Made by a program: the position numbers and the translations under genes. A stretch of 38,108 nt of DNA. Source: Polyangiaceae bacterium (GTDB taxonomy: Bacteria; Myxococcota_A; Polyangia; Polyangiales; Polyangiaceae). The DNA is taken from positions 1-38,108 of the forward strand of contig JAICQO010000066.1 in assembly GCA_025937835.1 (NCBI GenBank), in the 5' to 3' direction. This document shows, in pieces, positions 855-37,727 of the stretch. Below the pieces are notes generated by a model. That model worked only from the letters and a program-made list of their open reading frames with translations, made no database searches and was not told where the DNA came from. The first letter of the stretch is position 1, and each line of letters opens with the position of its first letter.

Positions 855-2267
855 GTGCTGAAGCGCTACCAACACACTTTCGGTCACATCTTCAGGCTGA
901 CCGACGCGACCGTGGTGGTCGGAGCGTGGCTCGCTTCTTACTGGGTTCGCTTCCACGTGCCGCCCGCATTCCACGTGCTGGCGGTGACCAAGGGCTTCCC
1001 CGAGTTCGCGACCTACGCGGCGCTCGCGCCGCTCGTCGCCGTGCTGTGGATGACGGTCTTCACGCTGCTGCACGTGTACGAGTCGAAGCGGCTACTGGCC
1101 CCTCTCAGCGAGCTCGGGGTAGTGCTGAAGGCGCACGCCGTCGCGCTGATGACGTTCGTGGCCGTCACGTTCATGTTCGAGGAGTACCACTACTCCCGGC
1201 TCGTCATCATTTACTTCGGCGCGCTGAGCGCCGTCGCGATGTTGGCCCTGCGCTTCACGCTGCTCGTGACCTTGCGCGCGCTGCGCAAGCGCGGCTTCCA
1301 CCTCCGGCACGCGATCGCCGTCGGCGAGGGCGCGGCCATTCGCGACCTGATCCGCCGGCTCGAGGCGTTTCCGGAGCTCGGACTGAGCGTGGCCGGGGTC
1401 ATCACGCGCGAGGGGCCAAACAGCGAGCGTAACTACAACAAGCCGTACCTCGGTGGTTTCGAGGACCTGCCCGAAGTCATCCGCACCCACCGCATCGACG
1501 AGGTCTTGATCGCGCTCCCGTCCTCCCAGGGCCGGGAGATGGATCGCCTGCTCGAGCTGCTGAAGGACGAGACGATCGACGTCCGCATCGTGCCGGACGT
1601 CCACCGCTTCGTGACGCTCGGCTGCGACATCGAGGACTTCGACGGCCTGCCGGTGGTTCGCATCAACGGCTCGCCGGTGATCGGCGGGGGCGCGTTCGCC
1701 AAGCGCGCGACGGATGCGGTGCTGTCGGCGGTCGCGCTGATCGTGCTGTCGCCGTTGCTCGCTCTGATCGCGCTTCTGGTCAAGCTGACCTCGCCGGGTC
1801 CCGTTCTCTACCGGCAAGAGCGGATGGGCCTCGATGGCCGCAGCTTCTCGATGTTGAAGTTCCGCTCGATGCGCGTGGACGCCGAGCAGCGCAGCGGCGC
1901 CGTTTGGTGTAGCGCCGGCGACGCGCGCCGAACCAAGTTCGGTACGCTGCTCCGGCGCACGAGCCTCGACGAGCTTCCGCAGCTCTGGAACGTGCTCCGG
2001 GGAGAGATGTCGCTGGTCGGTCCGCGTCCGGAGCGCCCGGTGTTCGTCGACGAGTTCCGCAAGCAAATCCCGCACTACATGCTGCGTCACAAGGTGCGCG
2101 CCGGCATCACGGGATGGGCGCAGGTGAACGGCTGGCGCGGCAACACCTCGCTCGATCGTCGCATCGAATGCGACCTCTTTTACATCCGCAACTGGTCTTA
2201 CGCCCTCGACCTGAAGATCCTCACCATGACGTTGTGGAAAGGCTTCATCGATAAAAATGCCTACTGA
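855..2267 (+). CDS. Polyprenyl-phosphate glycosyl-1-phosphate transferase (priming enzyme), copy 1
   Basis: This is the initiating enzyme of repeat-unit synthesis. It moves a sugar-1-phosphate from a nucleotide sugar to undecaprenyl phosphate at the inner membrane. The 470-residue product has the WcaJ/ExoE-type layout: hydrophobic segments in the first ~140 residues, a nucleotide-binding-like middle (about 145-260, with HAIAVGEG), one hydrophobic segment at 286-312, then the C-terminal Bac_transf domain. Conserved catalytic-domain blocks include KFRSMRVDAE (335-344), TSLDELPQLWNVLRG (369-383), VGPRPERP (388-395) and GITGWAQVNGWRG (417-429). The GTG start at 855 follows AGGTG (845-849) with good spacing and matches the MLKRY start of the copy at 34089. 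The sugar is probably glucose or galactose, but the sequence does not settle it. It opens the operon, 42 bases before the export gene. Confidence 0.93.
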   Translation: MLKRYQHTFGHIFRLTDATVVVGAWLASYWVRFHVPPAFHVLAVTKGFPEFATYAALAPLVAVLWMTVFTLLHVYESKRLLAPLSELGVVLKAHAVALMTFVAVTFMFEEYHYSRLVIIYFGALSAVAMLALRFTLLVTLRALRKRGFHLRHAIAVGEGAAIRDLIRRLEAFPELGLSVAGVITREGPNSERNYNKPYLGGFEDLPEVIRTHRIDEVLIALPSSQGREMDRLLELLKDETIDVRIVPDVHRFVTLGCDIEDFDGLPVVRINGSPVIGGGAFAKRATDAVLSAVALIVLSPLLALIALLVKLTSPGPVLYRQERMGLDGRSFSMLKFRSMRVDAEQRSGAVWCSAGDARRTKFGTLLRRTSLDELPQLWNVLRGEMSLVGPRPERPVFVDEFRKQIPHYMLRHKVRAGITGWAQVNGWRGNTSLDRRIECDLFYIRNWSYALDLKILTMTLWKGFIDKNAY

Positions 2268-21396: not shown

Positions 21397-22740
21397 TCAG
21401 GCCTGGATCGCCGAGCAGGGCGTGCTGCTGAGGCCAGCGCCGCCGCCGACCGAGCTCACGTTACACCCGGCCGCGCGGAGCAGCGTCAGGAGCACATCGC
21501 TCGTGTTCTCTCCGTTGGAGCGGTAGTGCACGCCGGGGTGCACCAGGCTGCCTCCGGCCTTGCCGGCGATCAGGATCGGATAGTCGTTCAGCGAATGCGC
21601 CTTGCCGTCGGCGACGTCGCTAGACGCGAGGATCCCGACGTTGTCGAGGACGCTCTGTCCCGTCATACCGTCGGGCGCCTTCTTCAGCGCCGCGAGGAAG
21701 TACGCGAACTGCTCCATGATGAAGGTGGTGACCGCATGTACCTCGGGCTGATCGCCGGGCTCGTTGTGCGTGAGCGCGTGGTGTCCGGACGAGGCCTGGA
21801 CGGGCCAGTAGCTGGTGTTGCCGAAGGCACCCGAGAAGTGCACCGAGAAGACGCGGGTCAGGTCCATGGACAGCGCCGAGGCGACCAGGTCGCTCATGAC
21901 CTGATTTCTCTGCACGAGCTCTTCGCGGGCGACCTCGTCCACGATCGAGGCGGGCCGCGCGGGGGGCTTTCGGATCACCGAAGGCTCCGAGACGCGGCGT
22001 TCGATCGCCCGCAGGTTCTCGAAGTGTTGGTCCAGGCGCTGTCGATCGGACACGCCGACCCGAGCTCTCAGGGCCGTGAAGTCCTGCTTCACGGCGTCGA
22101 GCACGCTGAGGCGGAGCGCGCTCGAAGCGTCGAGCAACGGCTGGGCCTCGGCGCCCGAGAACAGCCGTTCGAAAACCTTCACCGGATCGTACTCGGCCGG
22201 GTTCGGGCTATCGGGCCCGTTGTGCGAGAGGAACTGCGTGGTCGTACCTTCGCCCTTTTCGACCTTCTTCGACACGCCGACCTCGACCGACTTGAAGCGC
22301 GTGGTCGTGCCGAGCTCGGCTGCCGCCAGCTGATCGATGCTCGGCTGCGAGAAGGTCGAACGGAAGTTCGAGTCCGGGTGGGGCTGGGACAGCAACGGTG
22401 CGCCGGACAGGATGCCGGTGCAGCCCGAGTGGTGTCCGCGGTGGTTTCCGGATTTGACGTTCATTCCGGAGACGACTGACACGTAGTCTTTCACCGAAGC
22501 GAGCGGCGCGAGCTCTTCGCTCGGCTGCCAACCGGGCCCGGTCAGCTCGGGCACCCAGCGATCGAGCTTCACGCCGTTGCCCCAGAACCAGATGCCGAGC
22601 CGCTTCGGCGCGGCGGCGCTCTGACCGAGGGCCGAGCTTCGCCCGAGCATCGCCTCGAGCGACGGGAGCGCCACGGCCACGCCCAGGCCGGCCAGGGCGC
22701 CGCGCAACACGGTGCGCCGGCTCAATCGTTCGCGTGACAT
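21397..22740 (-). CDS. DUF1552 protein with a Tat signal
   Basis: The 447-residue product from ATG 22740 begins MSRERLSRRTVLRGALAGLG, a twin-arginine signal (SRRTVLRG, residues 7-14), so it should be folded before export to the periplasm. The body matches the DUF1552 family: RLGIWFWGNGVKLDRWVP, HRGHHSGCTGILSGA, and late blocks such as FSVHFSGAFGNTSYWP. The family is common in Myxococcota and Planctomycetota and has no established biochemical function; it is normally encoded beside a DUF1592-type protein, as here. The start is two bases after the upstream DUF1592 stop, so they are co-translated. The longer upstream open frame overlaps that gene and is not used. Confidence 0.9.
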   Translation of the reverse strand: MSRERLSRRTVLRGALAGLGVAVALPSLEAMLGRSSALGQSAAAPKRLGIWFWGNGVKLDRWVPELTGPGWQPSEELAPLASVKDYVSVVSGMNVKSGNHRGHHSGCTGILSGAPLLSQPHPDSNFRSTFSQPSIDQLAAAELGTTTRFKSVEVGVSKKVEKGEGTTTQFLSHNGPDSPNPAEYDPVKVFERLFSGAEAQPLLDASSALRLSVLDAVKQDFTALRARVGVSDRQRLDQHFENLRAIERRVSEPSVIRKPPARPASIVDEVAREELVQRNQVMSDLVASALSMDLTRVFSVHFSGAFGNTSYWPVQASSGHHALTHNEPGDQPEVHAVTTFIMEQFAYFLAALKKAPDGMTGQSVLDNVGILASSDVADGKAHSLNDYPILIAGKAGGSLVHPGVHYRSNGENTSDVLLTLLRAAGCNVSSVGGGAGLSSTPCSAIQA

Positions 22741-22742
22741 GG

Positions 22743-24512
22743 CTATTCTGGTGCTCCAGTCATCCGGAAGGCGTCGCTGGTCGCGATCCGCGAAAGCAGC
22801 GGCCGAACTCGAAAGCTCTCCGCCGTGAAGGCAGCGGAGAGCTCGCCGATCGCGGGCTCGTCTCCGCCCTGTTCGAGGTGGCCGGTCGCGACCCGGTACA
22901 GATTTCGGACCAGGCACTCGGCCACGCGCGGATCCGCGCTCAGCACCTCACCGAGCTCCCGTGCGCCGTCGAAGGCAACGCCGTCGAGCTCTCCGCTCAC
23001 GTCGAGCGCGTTGCCGGCGTCGCTGTCTCGATAGGCGCCGATCGCGTCGAAGTTCTCCAGAGCGAGCCCGAGCGGATCCATCCGGCGGTGGCAGCCGGCG
23101 CAGCTCGCGTTTTCGGCGTGCTCCGCCAGGCGCTCGCGCATGGTGCGCGGCGTGGTGTCTCGGTTCATCACGTCCAGATCGACCTCGGGCGGCGGCGGCG
23201 GGACCGCCTCGCACAACAGCACTTCGCGGACGAACCTGCCGCGCAACGTCGGAGACGTGCTCGCGGCGTGGGCGTTCAGCGCCAAGAAGCTGGCCTGCCC
23301 GAGGAAGCCTGCGCGCGGGCCGTCCGGCAACGTGACGCGCTGAAAGCCCTGTGCAGCGCCGGGCGCGAGCCCGTAGAGCGCTCCGAGCTCGGAGTTGACG
23401 AAGGTGGTGCGCGTCGTCAAGAGCTCGCGATAGTCGCCGTTCTGCACGAGCAAGAGGTCGGACAGCGACCTCCGCGTTTCCTCGCGCATCGAAGCGGCCA
23501 GCGTGGGCGTGAGCAACGGGAACTTTTCGGGGGAGGGCTCGAGCTTCTCGAGGTCTTCGAGCCGCAGCATCTGCGAGAGTATGCCGAGCAGCCCGGCTTC
23601 GGCGCGCGGTGACGCGAGCAGGCGCTCGGTCTGGGCCCGGATGCCCTCGGACGCCGAAAGCGCGCCCGTCCGGGCCGCCTCGAGTAGCTCCGGGTCGGGC
23701 GTGCTGCCCCAGAGAAAGAACGACAGCCGCGAGGCCATCTCGTAAGCGTCGAGCATTCTGGGCCCTGCGGCGTCGGAGGGCTTGCCGAGCTCCGCGCGGT
23801 ACAGGAAATTCGGAGACTGGAGCAGCGCAGCCAGCGAGTACTCGATGCCCGCCCAGACGTCGTTCGACGTTTCGGCGGCGAGCAGCGCGACGCTCGTGTA
23901 CCGCTCCAGCTCGTCTTCCGCGACGGGCCGCCGGAACGCGCGCCCTCCGAACTCCGTCAAGAAGTCCCTGAAGCACGCCTCGTCCTTGGTCGAGCTCGGA
24001 GTGCAAGCCAGCAACCGGCGCCGGGTTTCTTCGTTTGCCACCGCAGCGTGAGCGAGCTCGAACGCGCTCTGCTCGAGCTGCTCCGTCGCGAGCCCGGACA
24101 ACGTCAAGCTCGCGGCAGCGAGCTCCGCGTAGCCGTTGATGCGCGCCTCCGACTCGAGATCGAGGTCGTCTTGAACCTCGACGTCCAGTAGGTCTCGGAG
24201 GCTCTCGCGATACTGCCGGGTCGTGAGCAGGCGAAGCCGCGCTGCGGCGGGAACGAACGGGCGCTCCGGCGAGGCGGTCGCGCCCCCGGTGCTCGGACTC
24301 GGCCCGGGAGAGCCACCGACGAAAGCTTCGGGCCCACCGCCGCTCCCAGCGGCGCTCGGCGCGCCCCCCGTCGCGACGGGCAGCGAACCCGACTCCGTCG
24401 AAGCGGGCGAGTTGCCGTCGGCCTCGGAGCAGCCGGTGAGCGCGAGTCCGGCCAGCGCGAAACTCGCGCCAGCGAGGAGCCGCGCGAGCGCGGTGTGTAG
24501 CGTCGTTCTCAA
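22743..24512 (-). CDS. DUF1592-family lipoprotein with PSD-type domains and a CXXCH motif
   Basis: The order of blocks fits the DUF1587-DUF1595-DUF1592-DUF1588-DUF1585 array of this family: RLLTTRQYRESLRDLL, FGGRAFRRPVAEDELERY, YSLAALLQSPNFLYRAELG, LDAYEMASRLSFFLWGSTPD, and MDPLGLALENFDAIGAYRD. A single CAGCH (about 471-475) is the c-type haem attachment pattern, so a cytochrome-like redox role is plausible but unproven. I place the start at TTG 24512. It gives a clean signal peptide with lipobox LTGC (Cys28, product 589 residues), while the frame open to 24617 puts 35 extra residues before it and overlaps a palindrome array. A Ser/Gly/Pro-rich linker follows the cysteine. It heads a two-gene unit with the DUF1552 gene. 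Confidence 0.88.
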   Translation of the reverse strand: MRTTLHTALARLLAGASFALAGLALTGCSEADGNSPASTESGSLPVATGGAPSAAGSGGGPEAFVGGSPGPSPSTGGATASPERPFVPAAARLRLLTTRQYRESLRDLLDVEVQDDLDLESEARINGYAELAAASLTLSGLATEQLEQSAFELAHAAVANEETRRRLLACTPSSTKDEACFRDFLTEFGGRAFRRPVAEDELERYTSVALLAAETSNDVWAGIEYSLAALLQSPNFLYRAELGKPSDAAGPRMLDAYEMASRLSFFLWGSTPDPELLEAARTGALSASEGIRAQTERLLASPRAEAGLLGILSQMLRLEDLEKLEPSPEKFPLLTPTLAASMREETRRSLSDLLLVQNGDYRELLTTRTTFVNSELGALYGLAPGAAQGFQRVTLPDGPRAGFLGQASFLALNAHAASTSPTLRGRFVREVLLCEAVPPPPPEVDLDVMNRDTTPRTMRERLAEHAENASCAGCHRRMDPLGLALENFDAIGAYRDSDAGNALDVSGELDGVAFDGARELGEVLSADPRVAECLVRNLYRVATGHLEQGGDEPAIGELSAAFTAESFRVRPLLSRIATSDAFRMTGAPE

Positions 24513-24593
24513 ACTTCTCGTTCCGTCTCGCAGCAGACGGACGCGATGGTCCGCCCTTAAGGCAAGCAAGTCGTGAGCGAAGAGACCCAGGTG

Positions 24594-24642
24594 TTGCGCA
24601 GTTCGCGAACCGCGCAAGCTTCACGGCACAACTTGCGCGGTT
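24594..24642. repeat. Three-part inverted-repeat array with competing pairings
   Basis: TTGCGC (24594-24599), the palindrome GTTCGCGAAC (24601-24610) and GCGCAA (24612-24617) make a 24-bp palindrome with one mismatched pair. The arm AACCGCGCAAG (24608-24618) is also perfectly complementary over 11 bp to CTTGCGCGGTT (24632-24642). The middle arm can therefore pair left or right, but not both. It lies in the 286-base gap between the leftward DUF1592 gene and the rightward ABC exporter gene. It may be a multi-site operator or, if transcribed, alternative hairpins. Confidence 0.5.
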
Positions 24643-24719
24643 GACGAGCTTCGACCCGAATCGCCGCCGCGAGCGGCGCGGATACATCGTGGAAACCCAC
24701 GCAAGCCGCGTTGTATGGA

Positions 24720-24742
24720 ATCAACTCGACTGGTAGGTTGAT
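24720..24742. repeat. Inverted repeat ATCAAC-N11-GTTGAT upstream of the ABC exporter
   Basis: ATCAAC (24720-24725) and GTTGAT (24737-24742) form a perfect 6-bp inverted repeat 57 bases before the GTG start of the exporter gene. The sequence around it is lower in G+C than its surroundings, which suits a regulator site or promoter, but no matched -35/-10 pair is evident. Confidence 0.3.
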
Positions 24743-24798
24743 GCCGCACACCGCTCGGCGGCATACTCGGCCGAGCCGCGCGACCCCGAGCATCCGAC

Positions 24799-26652
24799 GT
24801 GAAGCTCAAGCTCTCGAACAGCCCGCTCTGGCGGTGGTTCTTCACGGCGCTGCGCCGGCACCCCTGGCACTCCGCCGCGGTGGTCGTGCTCAGCGTGCTG
24901 AACTCGATCGCGGACGGGCTCAGCGTCAGTCTGTTGATCCCGTTTCTGATCATGCTCTTCGGAGGCGGCGGCCAGGCCCCGGAGCAGGGCACCTTCGAGA
25001 GCGCGCTGCTCGTGGTCACCGAGTTCGCGGGCAAGGGTCACGAAATCACGGTCGTCTCCGGGTTGATCGTGGCGCTGGTCGCGTTCCGCAGCGGCGTCGC
25101 CTACGTCGAGGGGCTGGTCTCCAACTGGATCAGCGGCAGGATCAGCTGCGACATCCGCTCCAAAATCCACGACAACCTGCTGCGCGTGAACTTCGAATAC
25201 GTGTGCGTCAACGACAACGGACGCTTGCTGAACGCGCTGGACGGCGAGGCCTGGTCGGCGACGGACGCCATCACCACCGTGTTCGGGCTGTTCACGAGCC
25301 TGTGCATGGCGCTCGTGTTCTCGACGATCCTGCTCCTGATCTCGTGGAAGCTGACGATCGTCGTGGTGCTCCTGGTCGTCGTCGTTTCGGCCGTGACGCT
25401 GGTCTTCGATCGCAGGCTGCGAGGCATGAGCGTCCAGTCGGTCACGGCCGCCGAAGATCTGTCCGAGCGCGCGGTGGAGCTCTTCAGCGCGATGCGCATG
25501 ACGCGCGCGTACGGCCGCGAGCAGTTCGCGCAACGCGCCTACGACCAGGCCTCGCGCCGGCTGTTCGAGATCTCGATGCGGCAATGCCGCGTGGCTGGCG
25601 GCGCGGACATGCTGCGCGACGTGCTCTACGCCGTGAACTTCGTGATCGTGATCTTCGTGGCGCTGGCCCTCGGTATCGGCGGCGCGACGATGATCGCCTT
25701 TCTCGCGCTGCTTCACCGGCTGCAACCGCACGTGCGGGCGATCGACGAGGCCCGGATGGAGCTCGTCTCGCTCGGCGGCTCGATCGACACGGTCGCCGCG
25801 CTGCTCGCGCTAGCGCCCTGGAGCCCGGGCTCGGGCCGGGAGCTCCAACCCGACGCCGTCGAGGCCGGCGTTCGCTTCGACCGCGTGAGCTTTGCCTACT
25901 CGGGTAAAGATCTGGAGCAGCGGAACGCGCTCGACGAGGTGTCTCTCGAGTTCCCGGTAGGAAAGATGACGGCGGTCGTCGGCTGGTCGGGCGCCGGCAA
26001 GACGACCTTGATAAACCTGTTGTTCCGCTTCTACGATCCGAGCTCCGGAAGCATCACGCTGAACGGTGTCCCGCTCCAGCGCCTGGACCTCGACTGGTGG
26101 CGGAGCCAGCTTTCGATAGCCGGTCAGGACGCGGAGCTGATCGGCGGGACCATCCGCGAGAACATCGCCTACGGTAAGGAAGGCGCGACGTTCGGGGAGA
26201 TCGTGGACGCCGCCAAGCGCGCCAGCGTCCACGATTTCGTCAGCTCGCTGCCGCTCGGCTACGAGACACGCGTCGGCAGCCGCGGCGTCCTGCTCTCCGG
26301 CGGCCAGCGCCAGCGCATCGGCCTGGCGCGCGCGCTGCTGCGCCGTCGGGGCATCCTCGTCCTCGACGAGGCCACGAACTCGCTCGACAGCATGACCGAG
26401 GCCGAGGTGCTGCGTTCGCTCGAAGAGCTGCGCAACCAGATGACGATCATCGTGATCGCACACCGCCTGAGCACGACGCGCACCGCCGATCAGGTGATCG
26501 CGCTCGCCGACGGCAAGGTGGCCGAGGCCGGCACCCCCGCCGAGCTGCTGCGGAGCGGCGGCCTCTATTCCAAAATGGTTCAGCTCCAGGACCTGGCGGA
26601 GCTTCGGGGGTTCGCCCTCAGACCGGTAGATCCCGAGCCGATGACCAACTGA
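24799..26652 (+). CDS. ABC exporter, fused permease and ATPase (MsbA/PglK-type)
   Basis: The 617-residue protein has a six-helix exporter membrane domain in the first ~330 residues and a C-terminal nucleotide-binding domain. Walker A is GWSGAGKTT (395-403), signature LSGGQRQRIGLARA begins at about 499, and Walker B with the catalytic Glu is ILVLDEATNSLD (519-530). A half-transporter of this kind works as a homodimer. In a sugar locus it could flip a lipid-linked oligosaccharide, as PglK does, or export a lipid or peptide. The start is GTG 24799 with a poor binding site. It converges on the GT2 gene at 26691 and probably has its own promoter in the upstream gap. Confidence 0.9.
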   Translation: MKLKLSNSPLWRWFFTALRRHPWHSAAVVVLSVLNSIADGLSVSLLIPFLIMLFGGGGQAPEQGTFESALLVVTEFAGKGHEITVVSGLIVALVAFRSGVAYVEGLVSNWISGRISCDIRSKIHDNLLRVNFEYVCVNDNGRLLNALDGEAWSATDAITTVFGLFTSLCMALVFSTILLLISWKLTIVVVLLVVVVSAVTLVFDRRLRGMSVQSVTAAEDLSERAVELFSAMRMTRAYGREQFAQRAYDQASRRLFEISMRQCRVAGGADMLRDVLYAVNFVIVIFVALALGIGGATMIAFLALLHRLQPHVRAIDEARMELVSLGGSIDTVAALLALAPWSPGSGRELQPDAVEAGVRFDRVSFAYSGKDLEQRNALDEVSLEFPVGKMTAVVGWSGAGKTTLINLLFRFYDPSSGSITLNGVPLQRLDLDWWRSQLSIAGQDAELIGGTIRENIAYGKEGATFGEIVDAAKRASVHDFVSSLPLGYETRVGSRGVLLSGGQRQRIGLARALLRRRGILVLDEATNSLDSMTEAEVLRSLEELRNQMTIIVIAHRLSTTRTADQVIALADGKVAEAGTPAELLRSGGLYSKMVQLQDLAELRGFALRPVDPEPMTN

Positions 26653-34007: not shown

Positions 34008-34077
34008 CACTGACTCGAAGCCAGTAACTCGCTATTTCCAGCGCTGCACGGATTAGTTCTATCTGCGTTGTTTCAGA

Positions 34078-34083
34078 TGGAGG
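34078..34083 (+). promoter_or_regulatory. Ribosome binding site fixing the ATG at 34089
   Basis: TGGAGG ends five bases before ATG 34089. It settles the start against an in-frame codon at 34068, and gives a product that aligns from its first residue with the paralogue at 855. Confidence 0.8.
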
Positions 34084-34088
34084 TCCCC

Positions 34089-35501
34089 ATGCTGAAGCGA
34101 TATCACCATACCTTTGGCCATTTGTTCCGACTCTCCGACGCGACCGTCATCGTCGGCGCGTGGTTGGTCTCGTACTGGGTGCGCTTCTACCTGCCCCCGC
34201 CGATCCAGGCGCTCGCCGTTACCCGCGGTTTGCCCGAATTCGCGACCTATGCCGCGCTTTGCCCGCTGGTGGCGGTGCTCTGGATGACCGTGTTCAGCCT
34301 GATGCGGGTCTACGAGTCCAAGCGCCTGCTCGCGCCGGCTCCCGAGCTGCAAGAGGTGCTCAAGGCACACGGCGTCGCCTTGCTGCTGTTCGTGATGCTC
34401 ACGTTCATGTTCAAGGAGTACCGGTACTCGCGGCTGGTGCTGATCTACTTCGGGCTGATCGGCGGCGTCGCGATGTTGACCTTCCGGTTCTGGCTGCGCA
34501 CCCTGCTCCGCGAGCTGCGCGCGCGAGGCTACAACCTGCGGCACGCCGTCGCGGTCGGCGAGGGGGAGGCGCTCAAAGCTCTGATCCAGCGCCTCGATGC
34601 GTTTCCAGAGCTCGGGCTCCGCGTGCGCGGCGTCGTCACGGAAGAAGGCCCCGCCAGCACGCAGATTTACGGCAAACCCTACCTCGGAGATTTTCAGAGC
34701 CTGGTCGACGTGATCCGCCGCACCCGGGTAGACGAGGTGCTGATCGCGCTGCCCCCGGCCCAGGGCAACGAGCTCGACGGTCTGCTCGAGCTATTGAAAG
34801 ACGAGACGGTAGACGTGCGCGTGGTCCCCGACATCCACCGCTTCGTCACGCTGGGCTGCGAGATCGAGGACTTCGACGGCATGCCGGTGGTGCGCATCAA
34901 CGACTCGCCCGTGATGGGCTGGGGTGCGTTCGCCAAGCGCGCGACCGACGCGGCGCTCTCGGCGGCAGCGCTGGTGATCCTCTCGCCGCTGCTGCTGTTG
35001 ATCGCAGCCCTGGTGAAGCTGACCTCGCCCGGCCCGATCTTCTACGCGCAGGAGCGGATGGGGCTCGATGGTCGGAGCTTCAAGATGTTCAAGTTCCGTT
35101 CCATGCGCGTGGACGCCGAGCAGACCAGCGGCGCCGTCTGGTGCAAAGAGAACGACACGCGACGCACCAGGTTCGGCAGCTTCCTGCGCAAGACGAGCCT
35201 CGATGAGCTGCCCCAGCTCTGGAACGTGCTGCGCGGCGACATGGCGCTCGTGGGGCCGCGGCCGGAGCGTCCCGTGTTCGTGCACAAGTTCCGGACGGAG
35301 ATCCCCCACTACATGCTGCGCCACAAGGTGAGGGCCGGAATTACGGGCTGGGCCCAGGTCAACGGCTGGCGCGGCAACACCTCACTCGACCGCCGCATCG
35401 AGCACGACCTCTTCTACATCAAGAACTGGTCCTATGCGCTGGACGTGAAAATTCTGACCATGACGCTCTGGAAGGGGTTCATCGACAAGAACGCGTACTG
35501 A
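34089..35501 (+). CDS. Polyprenyl-phosphate glycosyl-1-phosphate transferase (priming enzyme), copy 2
   Basis: This is a second priming enzyme, also exactly 470 residues and alignable without gaps to the copy at 855. The C-terminal catalytic domain is nearly the same (KFRSMRVDAE, TSLDELPQLWNVLRG, VGPRPERPVFV, GITGWAQVNGWRG, WKGFIDKNAY). Differences concentrate in the N-terminal membrane region and the middle domain (for example 145-210). It would load the first sugar phosphate on undecaprenyl phosphate, either the same sugar under other conditions or a different one for a second polymer. The gene stands alone: a 788-base gene-free region precedes it, and a stem-loop plus an unrelated DoxX gene follow. 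No frameshift or lost motif suggests decay. Confidence 0.93.
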   Translation: MLKRYHHTFGHLFRLSDATVIVGAWLVSYWVRFYLPPPIQALAVTRGLPEFATYAALCPLVAVLWMTVFSLMRVYESKRLLAPAPELQEVLKAHGVALLLFVMLTFMFKEYRYSRLVLIYFGLIGGVAMLTFRFWLRTLLRELRARGYNLRHAVAVGEGEALKALIQRLDAFPELGLRVRGVVTEEGPASTQIYGKPYLGDFQSLVDVIRRTRVDEVLIALPPAQGNELDGLLELLKDETVDVRVVPDIHRFVTLGCEIEDFDGMPVVRINDSPVMGWGAFAKRATDAALSAAALVILSPLLLLIAALVKLTSPGPIFYAQERMGLDGRSFKMFKFRSMRVDAEQTSGAVWCKENDTRRTRFGSFLRKTSLDELPQLWNVLRGDMALVGPRPERPVFVHKFRTEIPHYMLRHKVRAGITGWAQVNGWRGNTSLDRRIEHDLFYIKNWSYALDVKILTMTLWKGFIDKNAY

Positions 35502-36148: not shown

Positions 36149-37279
36149 CTACGGCGCGGTGGGCAACACGGACTCGATCGCGCCGTAGAAGGCCTTCCCG
36201 AGCTCGGTGTAGCCGGCGTTGTTGGGGTGCAGGTAGTCCCCCATCCAGGCGCTGGCGTAGTTGGGGTTCGCCGCAAAAAGCGCGTAGTTGTCGAGCAGCA
36301 CCACGTGCTTGCCGGCCGCGGCCCGCGTGCTCACGAGCTCGGGCAGCGCGTTGTTGTAGGCAATCACCTTCGGATTCGTTCCCGAGTTGGCGATCGGGAT
36401 GATGGTCGCGACCACCACCAGCGCGTTCGGGGCCCGCATCGTGATGTCGTCGACCAGCTTGCCGAGGCGCCCCGGAGCGCCGTTCAGGTCCACGTTGCCG
36501 TTGATGTCGTTGGTGCCGATCATCAACAGCACGATGTGGGCACCACCGGCTAGCGCCTGGGCCGTGATCTGACCCGAGATCCCGTTGTGGCCGCCACCGC
36601 TGTCGATGGTGTAGCCGCCGCGGCCCTCGTGCTTCCGCGGGAACGGCCGCCCGTCTACCTCGTTCGGCCCATTCTGCTGCGAGCCCACGAAGGTGATGTT
36701 CTTTCCGCCCGCGACCGCGCGCCGGAACAGCTCGACGCGATACCCGCCGCCGGACGACCCGAAGCCCTCGGTGATCGAGTCACCGAGCGGCAGCACCGCA
36801 CAGGGGGTCATCGGATCAGCCGGGCAGGGAGAGAAGCCCGCCTTGCCGCCGCCGCCACCAGCCGCGCCGCCCATTCCGGCAGCGCCCGCGCTGGCTCCGC
36901 CCGCGCCTGCTCCAGCGCTCGACTTGCCACCGGCGGGCGCGCCGCCGCCACCTGATCCGGCCTGCCCTCCGCCCGCCGCGCCGCCCAGGTTCGCGGCCCC
37001 GCCGCCCCCGGAACCAGCGCCCCCCGTCGGTTGCGCACCACCCGACGCCGTGACGCCGCCCGTGCTCGCACCGCCCGTCGAGCTCCCGCCCGTCGGCGCA
37101 CCGCCCGTCGAGCCGCCGACGGAGAGGCTGCCGCCGCTCGCTCGAACGCCACCGGTGCTGGTCGCTACGCCACCCGTGCCGGTGCCGCCCGTGCCGCCGG
37201 GATCACTTGGGTTCCCGGATTCCGACGAGCAAGCGGCCAGCGCCAGTAGGAGGAACCATCCCGGGCTACGCGTTCTCAT
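36149..37279 (-). CDS. SGNH/GDSL-type esterase lipoprotein with long Gly-rich linker
   Basis: The 376-residue product begins MRTRSPGWFLLLALAAC: a signal peptide with lipobox LAAC (Cys17), so it should be lipid-anchored. Residues 18 to about 148 are a Gly/Ser/Thr/Ala linker made of short (S/T)GG-type units. The catalytic domain follows: block I PLGDSITEGFG (165-174, nucleophile Ser168), block III MIGTNDIN (253-260) and block V GDYLHPN (347-353, Asp/His pair). The layout resembles carbohydrate esterases that remove acetyl groups from polysaccharides. A role on the polymer made here is inferred. It lies 84 bases downstream of the rRNA-operon terminator, on the same strand. Confidence 0.88.
   Translation of the reverse strand: MRTRSPGWFLLLALAACSSESGNPSDPGGTGGTGTGGVATSTGGVRASGGSLSVGGSTGGAPTGGSSTGGASTGGVTASGGAQPTGGAGSGGGGAANLGGAAGGGQAGSGGGGAPAGGKSSAGAGAGGASAGAAGMGGAAGGGGGKAGFSPCPADPMTPCAVLPLGDSITEGFGSSGGGYRVELFRRAVAGGKNITFVGSQQNGPNEVDGRPFPRKHEGRGGYTIDSGGGHNGISGQITAQALAGGAHIVLLMIGTNDINGNVDLNGAPGRLGKLVDDITMRAPNALVVVATIIPIANSGTNPKVIAYNNALPELVSTRAAAGKHVVLLDNYALFAANPNYASAWMGDYLHPNNAGYTELGKAFYGAIESVLPTAP
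36836..37228 (-). repeat. Low-complexity coding repeat (Gly-rich linker of the esterase)
   Basis: This segment encodes about 130 residues made almost wholly of Gly, Ser, Thr and Ala in degenerate (S/T)GG-x units. At the DNA level short words such as GCACCGCCCGTCGAG recur. Such a tract is prone to length change by slippage. Confidence 0.75.
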
Positions 37280-37362
37280 TGGCTCTGTTGCGCAGTGACC
37301 CTGAAGCTGCGATTCCGTCGCGAACGGCTGGACACGGCCGAACCGCCGGCCCGTTTCGCAGC

Positions 37363-37397
37363 AAAAAGAAAGGGCCCAGAGTTTCCTCTGGGCCCTT
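37363..37397 (-). terminator. Intrinsic terminator of the rRNA operon
   Basis: On the minus strand a perfect 12-bp stem (AAGGGCCCAGAG with CTCTGGGCCCTT, 37370-37397) closes a GAAA tetraloop and is followed by TCTTTTT. It lies about 10 bases after the 5S 3' end. This is the clearest terminator in the window. Confidence 0.93.
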
Positions 37398-37406
37398 GTT
37401 GGATTA

Positions 37407-37522
37407 GCCCGGCAGCGTCCTACTCTCCCACACGGTTGCCCGTGCAGTACCATCGGCTCCGAAAAGCTTGACTTCCGAGTTCGAGATGGGATCGGGTATG
37501 ACCTTTTCGATATTGCCACCGG
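37407..37522 (-). rRNA. rrf: 5S ribosomal RNA
   Basis: Read on the minus strand, the segment begins CCGGTGGCAATATCG and includes the conserved 5S core CCCGATCCCATCTCGAACTC, then GGGAGAGTAGG before the 3' CTGCCGGGC. The length of about 116 bases is normal. Ends are placed by eye and may be off by a few bases. It follows the 23S gene in the usual order. Confidence 0.93.
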
Positions 37523-37727
37523 AAATTCTTGGGCGTCCAAAGCTGCGCTGAGATCCAGCGCTGCTAGCAACTCGGTGCACACAGTGCGCAGAGTCCGCTC
37601 CGGCTCACGCGCGCTCCGCTCGTCGTTACCGACGCTCGAGGCTCGCGGACTCGGGAGCTCGTGGTGACTGCGAAACTTCGCAGTCCGCCCGGACTCCGGC
37701 CACCAACTTCAATGTTTGCCTTAGGTT
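37523..37727 (-). other. 23S-5S internal transcribed spacer
   Basis: This is a spacer of about 205 bases between the 23S and 5S genes. I see no tRNA in it. It should contain RNase processing stems flanking both rRNAs; nothing else stands out. Confidence 0.7.

Follow-up and report, generated by a model that had tools for sequence, protein, structure and literature searches.

A putative operator-like dyad with an additional half-site between divergent DUF1592 lipoprotein and ABC exporter genes in a Polyangiaceae bacterium

The gap between a DUF1592 lipoprotein gene and a divergently oriented ABC exporter gene of a Polyangiaceae bacterium contains a single-copy element composed of a 24-bp dyad (24594-24617) and an extra half-site (24633-24647). 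On its anatomy and on base rates, the element is most likely an ordinary operator-like dyad with a half-site, recognized as double-stranded DNA by a regulator dimer, a reading to which we assign a probability of roughly 0.48. All coordinates refer to the window, the whole 38,108-nucleotide stretch analyzed here, which belongs to a draft genome of 6.9 Mb and 227 contigs. A first-pass annotation had proposed either an operator or an attenuator-like switch in the leftward leader; the former stands as the likeliest reading, whereas the latter is weakly supported.

The divergent gap and the anatomy of its repeats

The gap spans 286 bases, between the TTG start of the lipoprotein gene (first base 24512) and the GTG start of the exporter gene at 24799. 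The features relevant to this analysis are listed below.

22743-24512, reverse strand: lipoprotein-like gene with TTG start and domains DUF1592, DUF1588, DUF1595, DUF1585 and DUF1587 (Pfam scan)
24566-24575: segment complementary at 9 of 10 positions to 24627-24636, its partner in the lowest-energy structure predicted for the leftward leader
24594-24617: 24-bp near-perfect palindrome TTGCGCAGTTCGCGAACCGCGCAA, 11 of 12 pairs, with a perfect inner GTTCGCGAAC; proposed operator
24594-24608, forward strand: 15-mer copy A, TTGCGCAGTTCGCGA
24603-24617, reverse strand: 15-mer copy B, TTGCGCGGTTCGCGA, carrying the shared arm
24608-24618: arm 1 of an 11-bp perfect inverted repeat
24632-24642: arm 2 of the same inverted repeat
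24633-24647, forward strand: 15-mer copy C, TTGCGCGGTTGACGA, an isolated half-site with no palindromic partner of its own to the right
24799-26652, forward strand: ABC exporter gene (membrane domain and ATPase) with GTG start (Pfam scan)

Both pairings described in the first-pass annotation were recovered, with 24608-24618 complementary to 24632-24642 at 11 of 11 positions around a 13-nt loop, and 24594-24605 complementary to 24606-24617 at 11 of 12 positions with no loop. The inverted repeat and the palindrome have one arm in common, and the arrangement is described more clearly as one 15-mer, TTGCGCRGTTSRCGA, present in three copies, of which A and B together make up the palindrome. By simple arithmetic, the centers of the embedded hexamers are 21 bp apart between B and C (two helical turns) and 18 bp apart between A and B.

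The DUF1592 open reading frame stays open as far up as a TTG at 24617. The product initiated at TTG 24512, on the other hand, carries a lipoprotein-like signal with a lipobox at its very start (TTLHTALARLLAGASFALAGLALTGC), a short signal of the same kind is discernible by eye at the N-terminus of several related proteins, and GC content at the three codon positions is 0.71/0.51/0.60 across the open extension (24513-24617) versus 0.70/0.54/0.86 in the gene. Together, these observations indicate that 24594-24642 is most probably non-coding, and that the element lies 82-130 bases before the start codon, as had been annotated. A dyad-symmetric site beside a gene start in such DNA is what would be expected of a dimeric transcription-factor operator. 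Lying 82-105 bases before the lipoprotein gene start and 182-205 bases before that of the exporter gene, the dyad would exert its effect chiefly on the leftward gene.

Within 24440-24860 we found no terminator-like site and no sigma-70-like promoter, and inspection by eye against the sigma-54 consensus yielded no convincing pair of elements; a scan of 24300-25000 against Rfam returned no match up to E = 1. A tiny open reading frame on the forward strand (24715-24741, ATG to TGA, MESTRLVG) shares the frame of the exporter gene and stops 57 bases before its GTG. The lipoprotein gene and a DUF1552 gene (together 21397-24512) sit amid a large polysaccharide gene cluster encoding glycosyltransferases, a flippase-type protein, a Wzz/kinase and an export protein, with a sugar transferase (CoA_binding_3 and Bac_transf domains) near each end of the window (855-2267 and 34068-35501). 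No paper in the literature searched contained both DUF1592 and DUF1552.

Base rates, further copies and relatives

The first-pass annotation had regarded three TTGCGC/GCGCAA half-sites in 49 bases as exceeding chance. This argument fails because hexamer triples within 50 bases are commonplace: the window contains 37 occurrences of TTGCGC/GCGCAA (19 and 18), and clusters in which any hexamer appears three times within 50 bases number 54 in the window versus 36 expected under a third-order Markov model, so that hexamer clustering was discarded as evidence for an operator. Triples of 15-mers with at most 2 mismatches to each of two partners are scarcer, with 2 in the window versus 0.09-0.13 expected (Markov). 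With summed mismatches limited to 3, 800 kb surveyed from the own genome yielded 34 comparable triples, 8 of them in the approximately 80 kb called non-coding, and the same count gives 1 in the window. A further tight GC-rich repeat, in which three exact copies of a 9-mer fall within 50 bases, is located at 37056-37140, inside a GDSL-lipase open reading frame (36149-37582).

The window has 5 perfect inverted repeats of at least 11 bp with loops no longer than 20 (merged), against a mean of 0.9 in shuffled windows (not merged), and 3 palindromes with 12-bp arms, at most 1 mismatch and loops no longer than 4 (merged), against 1.3 per shuffled window (not merged). The overlap of a perfect inverted repeat of at least 11 bp with a distinct 12-bp-arm palindrome, a test defined post hoc with the element already seen, occurs once in the window, is absent from the 1.2 Mb of the own genome surveyed and arises 5 times in Markov sequence totalling 24.7 Mb (an expectation of 0.006-0.009 per window), and on this post-hoc basis the combination is unusual. 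An earlier count of 17 overlaps in 40 shuffled windows had allowed one stem to count as both structures. Intergenic palindromes are in any case several-fold above chance in this genome: they occur at 0.129 per kb in divergent gaps (4 in 136 gaps), 0.169 in convergent and 0.188 in tandem ones, compared to 0.040 in coding and 0.030 in shuffled intergenic DNA, the intergenic densities being 4-6 times that of the shuffled DNA. The gene caller behind the 15-mer triple, palindrome density and leader surveys is a crude heuristic combining open reading frames with GC by position, which makes the lengths of non-coding DNA and the classes assigned to gaps approximate; in the window itself, the palindrome ended up within the overlong DUF1592 open reading frame.

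When 377 phylum genomes were scanned with up to 2 mismatches allowed, the 24-mer matched only its own genome, and the reversed control matched one other. Seven further sites in the own genome, versus 3 for the reversed control, all carry 3 mismatches and all fall inside coding-like open reading frames, and a regulon of the 24-mer was consequently rejected. Exact 15-mer matches in the own genome are, among the places listed, only copies B and C, and one mismatch adds copy A and 15 other places among those listed; allowing up to 2 mismatches gives totals (193 forward and 173 reverse) close to those of the reversed-pattern control (177 and 173), which led us to dismiss a genome-wide 15-mer family. 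The inverted-repeat pattern is found at this site only in the 6.9-Mb draft. Pfam assigned no regulator family to any of the 31 window open reading frames scanned out of a larger total, and 7 of the 31 matched no family at all. In the passages of PMC9455977 that contain it, the string GTTCGCGAAC/TTGCGCGGTT lies inside a deliberately altered site and oligonucleotides.

No orthologous gap emerged from searches with the exporter gene in genus genomes, family genomes and GTDB contigs or with the DUF1592 gene in genus and family genomes. Among 8 genus genomes the exporter had a match in 7, including its own, with the best other at 35% identity and partial matches of up to 41%; among 108 family genomes only its own matched at E ≤1e-85 (0 of the 107 others), and the best 80 of 543 matches in GTDB contigs show 27-46% identity in their best segment. 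The exporter (24799-26652) is without a close relative in the genomes searched. The own genome holds 24 matches to the DUF1592 protein, the protein itself among them; its best other match in the 8 genus genomes reaches 40% (42% by identity alone), and the matches listed for the 108 family genomes do not exceed 45%. At the DNA level, 21 matches of 20-69 bases are listed besides the locus itself, distributed over 14 of the 38 relatives. Two matches overlap copy C and continue into the GC-rich stretch beyond, and none of the 21 covers the palindrome.

Upstream regions of other DUF1592 genes were also surveyed. Of 29 loci taken by match coordinates, one was left out as too short, and none of the remaining 28 regions (3 from the own genome) contained an inverted repeat, such a palindrome or three hexamers. 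An earlier survey had used the 16 of 37 loci with a callable start, including the window's own, leaving out 21. With either structure present in 0 of 28 other regions, an element common to DUF1592 upstream regions was rejected.

Weighing the operator against other explanations

As an operator, the 24-bp dyad would bind a dimeric regulator whose gene lies elsewhere, 24633-24647 would provide a weaker or auxiliary site, and the main target would be the leftward DUF1592 lipoprotein gene; protein binding, the gene controlled and the sign of control are all points that we infer from sequence. The exact dyad with a third copy of the 15-mer, a divergent gap with no terminator-like site in the scanned region, the genomic excess of intergenic palindromes, the rarity of the combined inverted repeat and palindrome, the spacing of the hexamer centers and the layout precedent of the DigR site discussed below all argue for this reading, to which the Markov chance estimate adds a little and the 28-region upstream survey nothing. 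Weighing against it are the missing regulator family among the scanned open reading frames, the lack of a second good site in the own genome, the absence of either structure upstream of the 28 other DUF1592 genes and of a sigma-70-like promoter in the scanned region, and the finding that comparable 15-mer triples are not rare in the real genome. Further sites or an adjacent regulator gene are not obligatory for a single-site local operator.

The main rival to the operator is an origin by chance or by neutral mutation, in which the palindrome would be a random GC-rich one under no selection for function, and the third copy would have been acquired by chance or through local inverted duplication (template switching). 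We regard this as a serious possibility. The 34 comparable triples in 800 kb, the commonness of hexamer clusters, the frequency of shared-arm leaders (discussed below) and the lack of a regulon or demonstrated conservation are all compatible with it, but the zero overlaps of both structures in 1.2 Mb, with so few expected per window, and the 4-6 fold palindrome excess over the shuffled rate are not readily accommodated. A mobile-element remnant, REP-like repeat or recombination site is mostly refuted and is the least probable of the readings considered. Inverted repeats of such length can form element ends, but the pattern of this one is unique in the draft, the exact 15-mer is confined to B and C among the places listed with totals near those of the reversed control, and the multiple genome copies typical of such repeats were not found.

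An RNA reading, in which the leftward mRNA leader would alternate between a hairpin of 24642-24608 and a hairpin of 24617-24594 combined with pairing of 24636-24627 to 24575-24566, appears unlikely. The leftward strand turns the single mismatch of the palindrome into a G-U pair, and predicted hairpin energies are -20.8 (B:C) and -13.0 (A:B) kcal/mol leftward versus -16.9 and -9.0 on the other strand. When transcription is set to begin at 24642, the predicted state changes once the 3' end of the transcript advances from 24570 to 24540: the ensemble is B:C at 1.00 with 3' ends at 24594 or 24570 and mainly A:B, at 0.80 and 0.91, with 3' ends at 24540 and 24512, and the minimum-energy fold of the 139-nt leader contains the 24636-24627 pairing with 24575-24566. 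The predicted switch nevertheless depends on the start site, with a start at 24650 giving a mixture at longer lengths and starts at 24660, 24680 and 24700 keeping B:C at 0.93-1.00 at every end tested. Likewise, 71-base pieces around the hairpins beat their shuffles (z of -2.50 leftward and -3.05 rightward) but were cut to fit the hairpins, and the full 139-nt leader is unremarkable (z = -1.56, with 8 of 200 shuffles as good). Of 264 real 149-base leaders, 3 contain arm-sharing helices of at least 10 pairs each (G-U pairs counted), as do 10 of 600 shuffles of this leader. An attenuator is weakly supported on account of these frequencies and the leader z-score, together with the finding of neither an intrinsic terminator as output nor a match to a described RNA family in the scanned regions. 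A combined scheme, with a bistable leader sharing an arm whose 15-mer would also be a protein site in DNA, so that the DUF1592 lipoprotein gene would be controlled at both levels, is very improbable.

Should the operator reading hold, the element would provide a handle on the regulation of one member of an expanded set of DUF1592 lipoproteins. Otherwise, it serves as a calibration example in which tallying hexamer half-sites in GC-rich DNA provides no evidence of an operator.

Comparison with known systems

In two-state leader RNAs, such as attenuators and riboswitch expression platforms, one arm pairs with either of two partners, and the shared arm described here likewise has two alternative partners. 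Unlike in those systems, it is accompanied by no terminator or Rfam match in the regions scanned, and control leaders show the arrangement at roughly the rate seen in shuffles.

The putative operator has a counterpart in Myxococcus xanthus, where a 24-bp palindrome at +1 to +24 of fibA is the binding site of the response regulator DigR, backed by gel shift, footprint and regulon (PMC3509222). The fibA promoter also holds a variant resembling one half of the DigR palindrome, at which binding was not detected (PMC3509222), and this part of the precedent counts against the reading proposed here. The two sites also differ in sequence, the DigR site reading TAATC-N14-GATTA versus TTGCGC-N12-GCGCAA here, and the searches for further sites found no regulon for the putative operator. 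What the element putatively shares with the DigR/fibA operator is its architecture: a 24-bp palindrome for a presumed dimer and a half-palindrome within the same promoter region.
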